Below are positions 2,751 through 64,000 of a stretch of 64,000 nt of DNA, one piece after another. Source of the stretch: Nannobrachium achirus (lineage: Eukaryota > Chordata > Actinopteri > Myctophiformes > Myctophidae). The notes under the pieces are model-generated. The model did no database searches and was not told where the DNA came from. It worked only from the letters and a program-made list of their open reading frames with translations. The DNA is taken from NCBI GenBank assembly GCA_963921795.1, contig OY997643.1:18051195-18115194 (forward strand), given 5' to 3'. The translations under genes and the position numbers were made by a program. Each line of letters starts with the position of its first letter. Positions within the stretch are counted from its first letter, which is position 1.

Positions 2751-2760
2751 ATAGCTACAT

Positions 2761-2816
2761 AGCCGATCTACAAGCTCACACAAGGCGCGTTGTGAGCTTG
2801 TAGATCTGCCATTTTT
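2761..2816. repeat. Shared hairpin module (copy with GATCTACAAGCTCACA stem)
   Basis: The left arm AGCCGATCTACAAGCTCACA pairs with TGTGAGCTTGTAGATCTGCC. It is the first of about thirty copies of this stem in the window, and the flanking sequence does not match the MITE families that carry the others. See findings. Confidence 0.8.
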
Positions 2817-2852
2817 CGTGCATGTGGTTGTGTGTGTGCGCGCACTGCCACG

Positions 2853-2918
2853 ACACACACACACACACACACACACACACACACACACACACACACACAC
2901 ACATACACACACACACAC
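2853..2918. repeat. (CA)n microsatellite
   Basis: About 33 CA dinucleotides with one interruption (CATA). Open frames across it are artefacts of the repeat. Confidence 0.95.
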
Positions 2919-3325
2919 TACACAGTCAGGAAATAGCCAACAGCGCTAGCGCCTAGCGTCCATTCTGCTCCGGATGTCCCCACGGTAAACAGTCCAATGC
3001 CATGGATAAAAGCTCAGACAGCTTGTTTGTAAAATACTTGCACATTTTTACTTGTTATACAATATGGGGTTGCCGAATCTTTATACTTTTTACACCTCCA
3101 ATGGCTGGTTTTAAAATTTGTTTCCGAAATGCAAATGCAACAAGTGCGGACGCCGGACAGCTTCTCTCTGATAGAACACAATGATATGCGCATTAATCCG
3201 CCCCCTTCCCCCACAACAGCAGATAAACACGCCTACATTTTAGATTTCTTTTCATGTTCTGAAATCCCATAAAACAAATAAAGAGGCAGCCCGTAGCCCA
3301 ATCAGGGCAACGTCTTCATTAACAG

Positions 3326-3402
3326 CCAATGAGGGACCAGCATTCCTGGTGATGCCAGTAACATCACCACTGGCATCACCAGGAATGCTGGTCCCTCATT
3401 GG
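3326..3402. repeat. Perfect hairpin, 34-nt arms, 9-nt loop
   Basis: Arms 3326-3359 and 3369-3402 are exact reverse complements as read (CCAATGAGGGACCAGC... and ...GCTGGTCCCTCATTGG). Perfect identity implies recent origin or maintenance. No element boundary is identified. Confidence 0.9.
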
Positions 3403-3530
3403 TGATGCCAGTGGTGAGAGCGCCTCATGACACGCTCTGCTGGCGCACAAGTAGGCCTTATTATTTTGCACAAGCCACAAGTTAGCACCTCAACAGAGTG
3501 CAGTAGTTCTAGTTTTATAATGTTCAAAAA

Positions 3531-3625
3531 TAGTGAAAATAGTTTCACTATTTTTTAATGAATATTGATACAGTGAAAATAGTTTCACTATTTTTTAATG
3601 AATATTGATACTGTAAAAATAGACG
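3531..3625. repeat. Tandem duplication, two units of about 42 bp
   Basis: GTGAAAATAGTTTCACTATT followed by TTTTAATGAATATTGATAC occurs twice head-to-tail, and a partial third unit follows. Each unit contains the small palindrome AATAGTTTCACTATT. Confidence 0.85.
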
Positions 3626-3993
3626 ATCTTCAAGATAATTCTATACTTAAAACTCTATTATGTACATTTGTTAGTGAATAAAATGTTATTTTGTCCAATT
3701 TGCATGTTAGAGTATGTTCATTCAATCTCATTTATGTGTGTGAAATGGGGGCATTGGGGTGGTTGTATTTGGTTTCCCTGCTCATCTATGGAGGACTTTA
3801 GATCCTTTGTCAAAGTTGGACATGACCTTTGACACAACCCCATTTCTGGTTTTACACACATACTTTGACCCTGAAGGTCAACAGTACATTTCTCCCCTGA
3901 GCAAGCAGGCAAGCAGTGGTAAAAAAAAAGGAGAAAAAAGAAGAAGAAATCCTGTCGGAGAGACCCTTGTTCAAATCTGTGGTAGTAAGAATA

Positions 3994-4152
3994 CTAATCC
4001 AGTGGTTCTCAAAGTGGATTCCAGGGACTCTGTGGGTTGCTTTATGGGGGTCCAAATGGACCCTTACAAGTCTGTAACTGACAGTATACAAATGGAACCA
4101 AATGAACCCTAACGGGTCCATTTGGTTCCATTTGTACACTGTCAGATTTAAG
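3994..4152 (+). mobile_element. hAT-like MITE fragment, CAGTGGTTCTCAAAGTGG family
   Basis: It starts with the hAT-type terminus CAGTGGTTCTCAAAGTGG and reads into the internal motif CCATTTGGTTCCATTTGTAC seen near 7700, 15930-16390, 39492 and 40770. The inner part forms an inverted pair around CCAAATGAACCC. The right end is missing. Confidence 0.6.
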
Positions 4153-4202
4153 GAGAGGCCGTTGTTCAAATCTGTGGTGAGAATACTAATCTAATCCAAC
4201 AA

Positions 4203-4640
4203 TAGTCTTGCGTAGCCAGACAACTATTCCACAATCTCCGAATGCTATAGAGTCTGGAACGGCAGCTCCCGAACGGCGAGTATTGGAAGTAGCCAGTGTT
4301 GCACTGAACTGTAGTCCCATTGGAAACATAACAGAAGCACAATAGCTCAGACAAAGACAATCGAGCGGCCTATTCTTGTTATGGGTGTATAATTTAAGAA
4401 AACGTTTGAAAACGTCATGGAGGTAACACCAATAACACCAGAGAAAGACAAATAACGCCCCAGAAATATTGAAAGGAGACTTAACGCTTCCAGTAGGACA
4501 TGTTATTGCTACTGCACCAAGGGAGCGGTTGCGTCACATCCGCTTTATCTCGCACTCATCGTTTCTATTTTCGTGCCCCAGACTGTTGACGGGAGCATGT
4601 CCCAAATCGCAGAGTCAACAGTCTGGCCACGCGAGACTAA
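4203..4640. mobile_element. MITE with TAGTCTYGCGTRGCCAGAC terminal inverted repeats
   Basis: The left end TAGTCTTGCGTAGCCAGAC is mirrored by GTCTGGCCACGCGAGACTA at the right. A short hairpin CCAGACTGTTGAC / GTCAACAGTCTGG lies just inside the right end. There is no ORF, so it is non-autonomous. The target duplication was not resolved. Confidence 0.55.
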
Positions 4641-4804
4641 TCCAACAACAAACATATGGCGGTCCCTGGCACAAACTCTCCTTAAGCAGTGCTTAACCCA
4701 TTAACACCTGAGGTTCAGAGTCTACAACATCTCTTCTAAATCCTAAGACTTTTCTGGAAAAAAAAAACGTGTGTTTTCTAGCAGCGTTTCTCTATGCGTT
4801 TCTC

Positions 4805-61620: not shown

Positions 61621-61727
61621 CCCTAAATAGTTAGGATGTTAAATGTATTGATTTCACCTACTGCTCCTGATACTGTAGTTTAGGATGGGTATAGGCCCTA
61701 AATGTATGAATACCACCCACTGTTTTG

Positions 61728-61890
61728 ATTGATTGATTGAAGACTTTAGAAGGTTGCATAGGAAAAAGTACAGTTTCACAACAGTACAGTTCACTGGTAC
61801 AAGGTCAACTAAAAGGAGATCCTAGTAAGCTTTTCAGCGTATTTACATAGGAAACCTTTATGTAGATCTCATATAACATTGAATGACAGA
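61728..61890 (-). mobile_element. LINE 3' tail
   Basis: TTGATTGATTGAAGACTTTAG then AAGGTTGCATAGGAAAAAGTAC matches the tail at 13850-14000. Confidence 0.65.
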
Positions 61891-62128
61891 CTAACTATTC
61901 CGAATCAGAATGGGTAAATGGATGAATATCACACACTGCTGCTCCTATAGATGGGTAAATGCAGAGGACAAATATCACGTTTGTGCAAAATATACTGTGA
62001 CAAACAAATACTCCACAGCAGTGGGGACTAAATGAATTATAATGAACGCAGCTGATCATGCAACTCCAGGTGGAATGTAGAGGATACAGCTTGTGCCAGG
62101 CAGGGAGTCAGTGTTCTGTCATTATGCA

Positions 62129-62590
62129 CAGGGGCGTCACAAGGGGTAGGAAAGTGGGACTGAGTTACTAGGGCCCAAGGTGGAGGGGCCTAGCAACTTT
62201 AGCTATTGAAAAATAGCAGACATACAAGCTCACAGCGCGGCACCGAGTGCCGCGCTGCGAGCTTGTAGATCTGCTATTTTTGAAAAGTTGTGAAAATGTG
62301 TGAAAATCTTTGGATATAATGTAAACTAAAATTTTGCTTCTGGAGGTCCCTGGAACTAAATATTTTGAGATCGGGGTCTGTGGCCAAATATATATCATCT
62401 TGGGGGTCCTTGACATAGGTTTCTTGCACACATTTTCACGATTTTTAAAAAATAGCAGATATGCAAGCTCGCAGCGCGGCACTCGGTGCCGCGCTGTGAG
62501 CTTGTATATCTGCTATTTTTCAATAGTTAAAGCACAGGGCCCACAGTGAATCCTTGTACCCGGGGCCCAGAATTTGGTGCGACACCCCCG
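62129..62590. mobile_element. hAT-type MITE, CAGGGGCGTCAC family, two shared hairpins, complete
   Basis: The ends CAGGGGCGTCACAAGG and GGTGCGACACCCCCG are flanked by exact 8-bp ATTATGCA (62121-62128 and 62591-62598). Hairpins at 62207-62284 and 62448-62523 each have GCGCGGCACCGAGTGCCGCGC-like tops. The outer flank of one is the complement of the outer flank of the other. Confidence 0.93.
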
Positions 62591-63099
62591 ATTATGCACA
62601 TAATGACTAATCAAGTCATCCTGATTTCACAAGTGCTTTCAATAGAAATGTCCTATTTACCACTAATGCGTGCAGTGCTATCAGAGCTGCTGTTTACATG
62701 TATGAGTGCATGAGAGCGCACAGCATCCACCATGCAATTAACTCCTGACATTTACACACTAGAAAAACAAATTGTCACTGCATACAAGGAAACCTTGTAT
62801 GTCCAAATCCCCCTCTTTTCAAAACAAATAAATAACCTTCCGATTGAGCCTTTATTGTTTAATCACACAAGCTGTTGTTACATTAAGACCTGAGGACAAT
62901 TCTTTTTTAACTTCTAAACTTTTATCCCACGATTTTGTAACCATTTTTTCACGTATAGTGCCAATTGCTTTAGCTGTAATCCTGGGCTCTGCTCTCCCTC
63001 TGCCAACCTGGGGAGGGCCCTGCACTGAGCTCATGCTTCCTTCAGTGCATGAGGAGTGAGCAAGCCACTTCCTATCACCTGACATAGCAGAGGGGAAGG

Positions 63100-63332
63100 A
63101 ACACGTTATTCCAACCAGGCTAGGGGCAGGCATATATAAACATGCAGTAATGGGTAGAACATGTAAACTCCACACAGAAAGGCCCTTTCGCCAACCCCAC
63201 CAAGGGTGTAGGTGCTGATGACGCGGAGGAGAGAACACGCCCCCAGCACCCCACGGGGGGAATCGAACCCAGGACCTTCTATAGCTGTGAGGCGACAGCA
63301 CTACCCAGTGCGCCACCGTCTGTGCCCCCAAC
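63100..63332 (-). mobile_element. tRNA-derived SINE
   Basis: The minus strand starts GGCACAGACGGTGGCGCAC then TGGGTAGTGCTGTCGCC, with an A box TGGCGCACTGGG, a perfect B box GGTTCGATTCC, and the body motif TTTCTGTGTGGAGTTTACAT. This is a common teleost SINE. Confidence 0.85.
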
Positions 63333-63390
63333 CCGAGGCTAATTCTGTGTCTTCTAAACAGTTTCCTGAAAAACTTATGTTGCTATATCA

Positions 63391-63560
63391 GTGGTGCTCA
63401 AACCTTTTCATGTCAAGGACCCCCAAAATGATATGTATTTGGCCGCCGACCATCTCAGAATATGTTGGTTCAGCGACCCCCAGAAGCAAAGATTTGTTCA
63501 CTTTAAAAGAATGTATTCAAAGTTTGCCAAAAAATTACACTATTTTTGAATAGCCAAAGA
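63391..63560 (+). mobile_element. hAT-type MITE fragment, CAGTGGTGCTCAAACC family
   Basis: The left end is CAGTGGTGCTCAAACC, then TTTTCATGTCAAGGACCCC. The reverse complement of this body forms the centre of the CAGGGGCGTC elements at 9949, 46495 and 62129. Confidence 0.7.
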
Positions 63561-63809
63561 ATGAAATAATGCTTGTTATCTCTAATCTAAAATGACACAG
63601 ATGCTTTCCTGGTCTTAATGGGTTGAAGACAAATAACCTGGGTTCCCATGGATCCCATGTAGTTATTATTTATTATTATTATTTAGTCCCACAAGATTTT
63701 GTTAATGCTTTTCACTGGTTCAATATTGATAAAACCCCCAAGACACACTTGTGAACCACTTTCACTTGCACCTCTCTTGCACCTCACAAAACCTCTCAAA
63801 AACTGCAGA

Positions 63810-63862
63810 AAATGAAAGATCTAGAAACGTCTCGCGTAGCGACGTGTTGTGAGCTTAATGTA
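63810..63862. repeat. Degenerate shared hairpin
   Basis: AAAGATCTAGAAACGTCTCGC then GTAGCGACGTGTTGTGAGC keeps the top of the stem but lost much of the base. Confidence 0.55.
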
Positions 63863-63914
63863 GATGCGCGACACTCTTGTAACAACAAAGCATAGAGGCA
63901 TTGATTTAGAAAAT

Positions 63915-64000
63915 ATAGTTGCTGTCATGCAGGTGGAAACCTTGTACTGTATGTTCAAAACCTTCCCCTTTTTTGTTTATTATTTAAAGCTTGTAGATCG
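63915..64000 (+). mobile_element. TCGTCGTTGTC-family MITE fragment, cut by window end
   Basis: TTGCTGTCATGCAGGTGG then AAACCTTGTACTGTATG. The window closes in GCTTGTAGATCG, the start of another hairpin arm. Confidence 0.55.

Follow-up and report, generated by a model that had tools for sequence, protein, structure and literature searches.

MITEs of the hAT type have CAGNG... ends and 8-bp target duplications. Three of the elements described here (hosts A, B and E) resemble them in ends and duplications; unlike in those MITEs, one long hairpin sits here in several families whose ends differ. Foldback elements and long-inverted-repeat MITEs represent palindromic DNA on transposons, like the mirror-image host A with its one hairpin per half, but there the palindrome forms the ends, whereas here it is a short internal module. 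In teleosts, short inverted-repeat elements such as Angel offer a further parallel: a hairpin-based amplification model has reportedly been proposed for fish MITEs, and it is by that model that we liken them to the present elements.

Mobile hairpin elements have also been described in organelles, namely a family of mobile DNA in yeast mitochondria (PMC4478555) and the palindromic repeats of Volvox (PMC2670323). As far as the accounts in these two sources go, they too are short dispersed repeats, palindromic in Volvox. Unlike the elements so described, the hairpin studied here is nuclear, lies inside transposons and tracks the host family, and no insertion of a bare hairpin was found. Hairpins shaped by template switching likewise have complementary changes in arms that are rewritten from each other, but they were studied in RNA genes (PMC8794818), whereas here one stem sequence occurs in about half a million copies.

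The hairpin and its host elements

The window, a 64,000-nucleotide stretch of the Nannobrachium achirus genome, harbours a hairpin of about 70 bases that is internal to many different small transposons. The 20-mer TAGCAGATCTACAAGCTCAC has 38 near-matches in the window (≤3 mismatches) against 0 by chance, and AACGCCTCGC has 17 matches with ≤1 mismatch where 1.2 are expected. All 14 coordinates named in the first-pass annotation lie within 25 bases of a TAGCAGATCTACAAGCTCAC-like arm. The covariance model that it proposed, built from 39 hairpins, identifies 21 distinct hairpins in the window (E ≤ 0.01, strands merged by hand), so that its figure of about thirty is too high for whole hairpins, although the recurrence of the stem is borne out by the arm matches. 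The arms at 13617, 14516, 23425, 59328 and 30871 have no match to the model. Twenty further 10-kb stretches from elsewhere in this 1.66-Gb genome hold 64 hairpins, a density that makes the window typical of the genome and that extrapolates, from these twenty stretches, to about 530,000 hairpins genome-wide; the exact 20-mer was counted 66,270 times.

Rfam gives no match in the window at its gathering score, which argues against a microRNA or other RNA family already known. A search of the literature for four 15-mers of the arm gave no paper that contains them, in agreement with the earlier remark that no matching described element was known. Viral and prokaryotic contigs contain no exact match to a 24-base arm pattern, which speaks against a viral or prokaryotic source.

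Among the hosts (Table 1) are a TA-flanked element and a longer near-identical repeat, besides MITEs of the hAT type that have 8-bp target duplications; there are others as well. Their ends were read by eye, and the duplications are best cases, other copies being less clear: they are exact over 8 bp in two copies of host B and one of host A, and agree at 7 of 8 bases, (C/T)TTTACAG, in host E at 52833/53140, whereas the one complete copy of host C has TA on both sides. End reading and hairpin comparison support the view that a single stem is common to host families that end differently. As for the two hairpin-free members reported earlier, that at 52833 does belong to the CAGTGGTTCTCAACC family (host E), but for the one at 38823, which is short, flanked by TA and without hairpin, kinship to the TCGTCGTTGTC family was judged by eye only. 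TAGTG/CACTA flanks are present in hosts C and I, L021 and L011:3963; none were noticed in hosts A, B, E and F.

Table 1. Hairpins and host elements in the window (positions are those of the window)
Positions	Strand	Feature	Basis
2756..2815		hairpin, host element not recognised	covariance model R1
6488..6992	+	host G, CAGTGGTGTAAAG type; hairpin 6751-6812	ends and model
9949..10423	+	host A, CAGGGGCGTC type; two hairpins, 10043-10096 with alike arms and lost top, 10311-10348 collapsed	
10860..10951		divergent long-loop hairpin, host not recognised	model
19939..20009		host E hairpin (CAGTGGTTCTCAACC, left end 19812), both arms with CATGC	
20979..21049		host F hairpin (CAGGGGTGGGCAACT, left end 20859)	
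22479..23062	+	host B, exact 8-bp duplication CAGTAACA, internal duplication; hairpins 22632-22679 and 22856-22926	
29542..29956	+	host B, exact 8-bp duplication TCCTAATG; collapsed hairpin 29782-29819	
31828..31898		host C hairpin, both arms with GCACAC	
38298..38557	+	host C, TCGTCGTTGTC element flanked by TA; hairpin 38406-38476	
41850..41895		host B, collapsed hairpin	
46576..46646		host A (left end 46494), first hairpin	
46895..46943		host A (left end 46494), second hairpin	model
47396..47455		host F hairpin (left end 47275); stem extends about 11 bases past AAAAT into host sequence	
52833..53140	+	host E member without hairpin	
55056..55485	+	host B; hairpin 55296-55364	
55832..56230	-	host B reversed; damaged hairpin 55963-56011	
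61151..61620	+	host B; hairpin 61434-61505, paired change CTCTC/GAGAG	
62129..62590	+	host A, exact 8-bp duplication ATTATGCA; mirror-image hairpins 62210-62280 and 62449-62519	

Stem pairing and divergence

Family-specific changes on both arms were found at 19 of 34 pairs, against 11.0 in shuffles, and in 91 cells against 34.0 (0 of 500 shuffles in both cases), as in hairpins shaped by template switching. This strengthens the earlier hint, prompted by the paired change TCTC/GAGA that is indeed present at 61434, that pairing is maintained or re-copied. Two places in the window fold far better than shuffled sequence (z -10.6 and -15.2). The mean boundary of the hairpin is sharp at AAAATAGC (58 flank clusters, 182 arms), and the stem extension adjoining the core is longer than in mismatched flank pairs (p=3.5e-5; 24 contexts, some related). 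Palindromy in the wider flanks stays at the chance level (self 6.92 versus cross 6.82, p=0.59). Complementarity beyond chance being limited to a few core-adjoining bases, we rejected palindrome-targeting, in which the hairpin would form the middle of larger palindromes of the host.

In most copies of host A the two arms differ; they are alike at 10043, where the top is lost. Shortened hairpins are common, affecting 10 of the 27 copies of hosts A, B and C that were found by both flanks. With these set aside, substitutions relative to the family consensus amount to 46 of 1,149 hairpin bases (arms, tops and the outer eight included, loops, at 10 of 51, left out) versus 136 of 1,679 flank bases in 17 copies of three families, a small sample in which the family consensus may mix subfamilies. 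Lower divergence in the hairpin than in the flanks is not predicted by pure passenger decay. Arm pieces also occur within tandem arrays (26199-26399, 30661-30866, 22615, 22839 and L006:2132-2718).

Inheritance and origin of the hairpin

On a tree of 43 hairpins, the 14 host labels require 13 changes, which is the minimum (shuffled mean 27.0; 0 of 200 shuffles), in a short alignment of 67 columns where six labels have one row each, within-family rows are near-copies and 20 of 38 inner branches are open. Considered one by one, host B needs 2 changes, F needs 3 and I needs 2. Hairpin phylogeny thus does not appear independent of host family on this short tree. The hairpin of L017:6586, which is C-like but truncated and groups as the sister of C (86/86), is located between two other repeats. 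C16:56586873 matches the left repeat of L017 together with the hairpin at 80%, as a search match only, so that L017 may belong to a small family and not be an isolated capture. The family search for host K scored 40 of 1,685 candidates, with a truncated query hairpin that biases the matches to truncated copies.

The comparison of hairpin-bearing and hairpin-free members, which the first-pass annotation had suggested, was run for hosts A and E, and the clean hairpin-free joins were rare and look like deletions. Host A has 103,594 hairpin-bearing junctions versus 296 hairpin-free joins (≤3 mismatches in 27 bases; 0 in reversed controls), and host E has 1,825 exact hairpin-bearing junctions versus 5 joins, each different from the others, in which exact outer flanks are separated by 2-14 bases. 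The resulting ratio of about 350:1 in both hosts is only rough, because stringency was unequal, the hairpin-bearing patterns taking in conserved hairpin bases (16 in A, about 12 in E), and each hairpin-free pattern detects one kind of join only. L010:4629, a copy with the hairpin, has a variant flank pair that recurs in 13 of 100 listed among the 296 host A joins, as would be expected if deletion had occurred in at least two subfamilies. The hairpin-free copies 52833 and L032 were considered as pre-insertion copies of host E and rejected, given just 5 joins of the searched form.

Since the tree follows the host and hairpin-bearing junctions far outnumber hairpin-free joins, the copies from which the counted hosts A and E were amplified probably carried the hairpin already. 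We propose, at about an even chance, that it is a palindromic passenger of non-autonomous DNA transposons, inherited within families, acquired at their founding by chimera formation or template switching, and kept paired by template switching. It would spread via the cut-and-paste transposase of its host, of the hAT type for CAG-ended hosts with 8-bp duplications and a TA-duplicating enzyme for host C. Unrelated hosts would gain it when a family is founded, a hairpin-bearing stretch being copied into a damaged element while a break or gap is repaired, or through a template switch at the palindrome. Switching from arm to arm could then maintain the complementarity and extend the stem by a few bases into the host, the pattern observed here, and palindrome instability would account for collapsed tips, rare clean losses and tandem arrays with arm pieces. 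No family founding with clean states before and after it was found. In yeast, templated inverted duplications, mostly of about 5-34 bp, are reported to arise at breaks (PMC11724301). Template switching is reported both to make and to repair hairpins and can yield two-sided changes in one event (PMC8794818).

Alternatively, all hosts might derive from one ancestral hairpin-bearing MITE, with ends and outer sequence diverged or swapped and the hairpin still recognisable, which we consider unlikely. The first-pass annotation, which called the hosts unrelated, had itself raised such a common ancestor, and this has been borne out in part. In comparisons of 100-base flanks, the pairs C-D, D-O, M-O, B-U and B-R score above every one of 1,200 shuffles, four more (F-M, C-N, C-M, B-J) reach the shuffle tail only, and hairpins diverge less than flanks within families. 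However, E, H, I, K and most others have no flank match clearly above shuffles in these comparisons, and A matches clearly only its own subfamily. BLAST links join B, E, F, G, J and K, but the labelled pairs that we inspected trace to two loci (L018:6256 and L027) whose flanks contain further arms. A single hairpin clade of C, D and M, of which C and D have common flanks, is weakly rejected (AU p=0.0415, uncorrected; p=0.21 when F is added), and target duplications differ among hosts (8 bp versus TA). Sequence shared by some hosts beyond the hairpin would be expected of chimeras as well as of relatives. A TA-duplicating micro-element was rejected, as no TAGTG/CACTA flanks were noticed in A, B, E and F, and L021, with its tail score in the flank comparison, may be a relative of host C.

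It is also possible, but in our view unlikely, that the hairpin is a transmissible module repeatedly captured by new MITE families and aiding their amplification, that is, a transposon parasite that moves by repair rather than by an enzyme of its own. As improbable to us is a separate tiny palindromic transposon, active now or formerly, that inserted once per host founder and was then co-amplified. The sharp boundary and the differing host ends would suit such an element, as would the direct repeats seen by eye at the hairpin base of some copies (TTGAAAA in A, ATT in E, ACTAGT in C) and the presence of the predicted TTGAAAA-collapsed form of host A at 296 places. However, base repeats vary in length and sequence among families, with B and F showing none, and thus they do not represent a fixed target duplication; the few hairpin-free joins of A and E involve different variants, as losses would give. 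No complete hairpin was found in single-copy DNA, nor, among the copies examined, a bare hairpin with an empty site and constant duplication, L017 being truncated and between two repeats. The suggestion that the hairpin is separately mobile or self-copying at present finds no support in the minimum number of changes on the tree, the few deletion-like joins and the varying base repeats. Lastly, that the stem is kept for an element function, such as replication recognition or small RNAs, is very improbable: two-sided changes and divergence below that of the flanks would fit, but a single template switch can produce the former (PMC8794818), the window lacks an Rfam match and shortened hairpins are common.

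A palindrome at high copy number

The same hairpin occurs in unrelated families, and the route of each acquisition is unexplained; it seems to travel as a transposon passenger and not alone. Long palindromes tend toward instability in DNA, and despite this one stem has been kept at an estimated half million copies across families with different ends and duplications. If the hairpin were a transmissible module, one palindrome would be present in many successful non-autonomous DNA transposons of one vertebrate lineage. If the capture of the hairpin at the founding of families is true, these elements would constitute a large natural record of MITE assembly and of stem pairing by template switching.

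Structure and abundance of the hairpin

The hairpin, a palindromic stem of about 70 bases inside many small transposons, commonly reads AAAATAGC(A/C)GATCTACAAGCTCAC; next come a top of ten bases (the stem bases nearest the loop, with variants including AACGCCTCGC, AACGCGTCGC and AGCGCGGCAC), a loop of three bases and the complement. With weighting over 58 flank clusters of 182 arms (an arm being one side of the stem), conservation is high across AAAATAGC and drops to near background within some five bases beyond it. Its hosts are labelled by their flanks, A, B and E being hAT-type MITEs and C being TA-flanked. 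Short family-specific extra stems adjoin the core in several of them (CAAAAGAAGC in host F, ACTAGTG in host C, TTGTG in host E). In a set of 24 representative contexts that includes related ones, this extension exceeded that of mismatched flank pairs (p=3.5e-5), and palindromy in the wider flanks was not above chance (p=0.59). Host A carries two hairpins in mirror-image arrangement, and the right ends of host F were not located in the window by eye. Further hairpin-bearing repeats outside the window are H, I, K and a recently spread repeat of at least 2 kb.

Host families and other features (host ends and duplications read by eye in the window; strand in brackets)
Feature	Location	End	Duplication	Observation
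Host A	window	CAGGGGCGTC	ATTATGCA	
Host B	window	CAGGGGTCTTCAAC	CAGTAACA and TCCTAATG	
Host E	window	CAGTGGTTCTCAACC	7/8 bases	
Host C	window	TCGTCGTTGTC	TA	
Host G	window	hAT-like	none clear	
Host E copy	window 12000-12217			GATA microsatellite starts at the expected hairpin base
Tandem repeats	window 17544-18078; L011:4827-5674, beside the L011 repeat			same odd translated motif (MPIYG...)
Tandem arrays	window 22615 and 22839			12-bp arrays with arm pieces
Minisatellite	window 26199-26399			arm piece inside each unit (28 bp)
Minisatellite	window 30661-30866			arm piece inside each unit (43 bp)
LINE-like frames	window 43617-44278 (-)			resemble part of a reverse transcriptase (translation, by eye)
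Zinc-finger frame	window 48640-52761 (-)			stop-to-stop, 1,373 codons; two C2H2 Pfam matches, one above cut-off; lies where the window is richest in G+C; probably a single long zinc-finger gene exon
Repeat of at least 2 kb	L011:2356-4632, outside the window			fetched copies 98-100% identical; degenerate hairpin inside, CTAG on both sides; longest stop-to-stop frame wholly within it 102 codons

The 20-mer TAGCAGATCTACAAGCTCAC has 38 matches in the window at up to three mismatches, against 0 expected, and 66,270 exact matches in the whole genome (1,658,514,493 bases, 564 contigs; reversed control 0). A covariance model, the tool that the first-pass annotation had proposed, was built from 39 hairpins and run on the window and on twenty 10-kb stretches (positions 5 and 15 Mb on ten contigs). 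At E<=0.01 it gave 165 strand matches over these 264 kb, which hand merging reduced to 85 places (21 in the window, 64 in the stretches); many of these hairpins had also served to build the model, and 17 of the 20 stretches hold at least one. The resulting density of about 320 per Mb extrapolates to some 530,000 hairpins genome-wide; the window is not special in this respect.

In the 39-row alignment, 90.7% of cells are paired, a count that includes related sequences many times over; slid controls drop to 27-45%, a comparison biased towards the structure because the latter was derived from the same sequences. Two-sided changes occur in 19 of 34 pairs, against 11.0 in shuffles (sd 1.8, 0/500), and track the host family: both arms carry CATGC in E, GCACAC in C, CTCAAA in F and AGCGCGGCAC in A. 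Contrary to this pattern, certain pairs remain mismatched within a family: most of the host A copies shown have arms that disagree at identical positions, which suggests that arm-to-arm correction after spread is rare. The host A copy at 10043 of the window, with arms alike and the top lost, is an exception.

Kinship of the hosts and movement between them

Descent of all hosts from one MITE already holding the hairpin, named in the first-pass annotation as a finding that would refute its reading, is supported for part of the families. When 100-base flanks of 23 contexts were compared (1,035 pairs), A-A2, D-O, B-U, B-R, C-D and M-O scored above every one of 1,200 single-base shuffles (top score 21); C-N, G-S, F-M, D-M, C-M and B-J fell in the shuffle tail, where some are expected by chance, and most other pairs did not stand out. 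A BLAST grouping placed B, E, F, G, J, K and others in a single component of 24 and linked window 2761 to A. The links that joined B, E, F, G, J and K trace, for the labelled pairs checked, to two loci outside the window, L018:6256 and L027, with further arms in their flanks. Certain host families are thus related around the hairpin; for others no sign of kinship emerged.

The proposed movement of the hairpin between families is not borne out by a maximum-likelihood tree of 43 hairpins (41 of 43 full-length hairpins, two host A rows being omitted, plus two from host B). In this short tree (67 columns, 20 of 38 inner branches open), with labels assigned by us from flanks and six of them represented by one row each, 13 label changes for 14 labels are the minimum, against a shuffle mean of 27.0. 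Taken singly, changes number 2 for B, 3 for F and 2 for I. Uncorrected for several tests, C, D and M as a single clade are weakly rejected (p=0.0415), and clades C-D-M-F (p=0.21) and B-J-U (p=0.22) are not. This topology suggests that the hairpin was inherited with its host after each founding event.

A possible transfer is found elsewhere in the genome at L017:6586, where a hairpin resembling that of C, its sister in the tree (86/86), lies without C flanks and with its left arm truncated. Fetched copies of the repeat on its right (L036-L038) have no hairpin there. To its left lies a different repeat, whose match to most listed copies stops 20-30 bases before the hairpin (40 of 2,406 candidates scored), and copies L039 and L040 also lack it; L036 and L040 carry other hairpins about 350 bases away. 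Among the matches listed, however, C16:56586873 matches left repeat and hairpin together at 80%, which counts against a single capture at L017.

Hairpin-free copies and instability

Hairpin-free members do exist, as the host E copies at window 52833 and L032 illustrate, but joined flanks are rare. The host A form TTTAGCTATTGAAAAGTCGTGAAAATG occurs at 296 places at up to three mismatches (reversed control 0), against 103,594 for a hairpin-bearing junction of equal length, a ratio that is only rough because the latter pattern includes 16 conserved, more easily matched hairpin bases and a complete element has two such junctions. For host E, five joins (exact flanks 2-14 bases apart), all unlike each other, compare with 1,825 exact hairpin-bearing junctions; each count covers one kind of loss. 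The host A join retains one TTGAAAA of the direct repeat on the two sides of the hairpin, as expected both for an empty site with a 7-bp duplication and for a deletion by slippage. Deletion is favoured, since joins are few and 13 of 100 listed carry the flank variants seen in a different subfamily that bears the hairpin (L010:4629). The base repeats (TTGAAAA in A, ATT in E, ACTAGT in C) do not look like the target duplication of one element, as they differ between families and none was seen in B and F.

In 10 of the 27 A, B and C copies located through both flanks, the hairpin is shortened by more than 10 bases. In the 17 unshortened ones, substitutions from consensus number 136/1,679 in flanks, 25/542 in arms, 16/335 in tops, 5/272 in the outer eight bases and 10/51 in loops; homogenisation or selection could account for the low stem divergence, as could a flank consensus that mixes subfamilies. 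Arm pieces also occur in tandem arrays of the window and of locus L006 (31 and 52 bp), and the two window minisatellites look as if seeded by the hairpin.

A palindrome common to several MITE families

The window matched no Rfam family at the gathering score, the literature searched by sequence did not contain four arm 15-mers, and a 24-base arm pattern had no exact match in viral and prokaryotic collections. No description of such a shared module was found in the literature searched, a comparison made without Repbase and Dfam that does not establish absence from print. The hosts are MITEs with an internal palindrome; what is unusual is that one palindrome is common to families with different ends.
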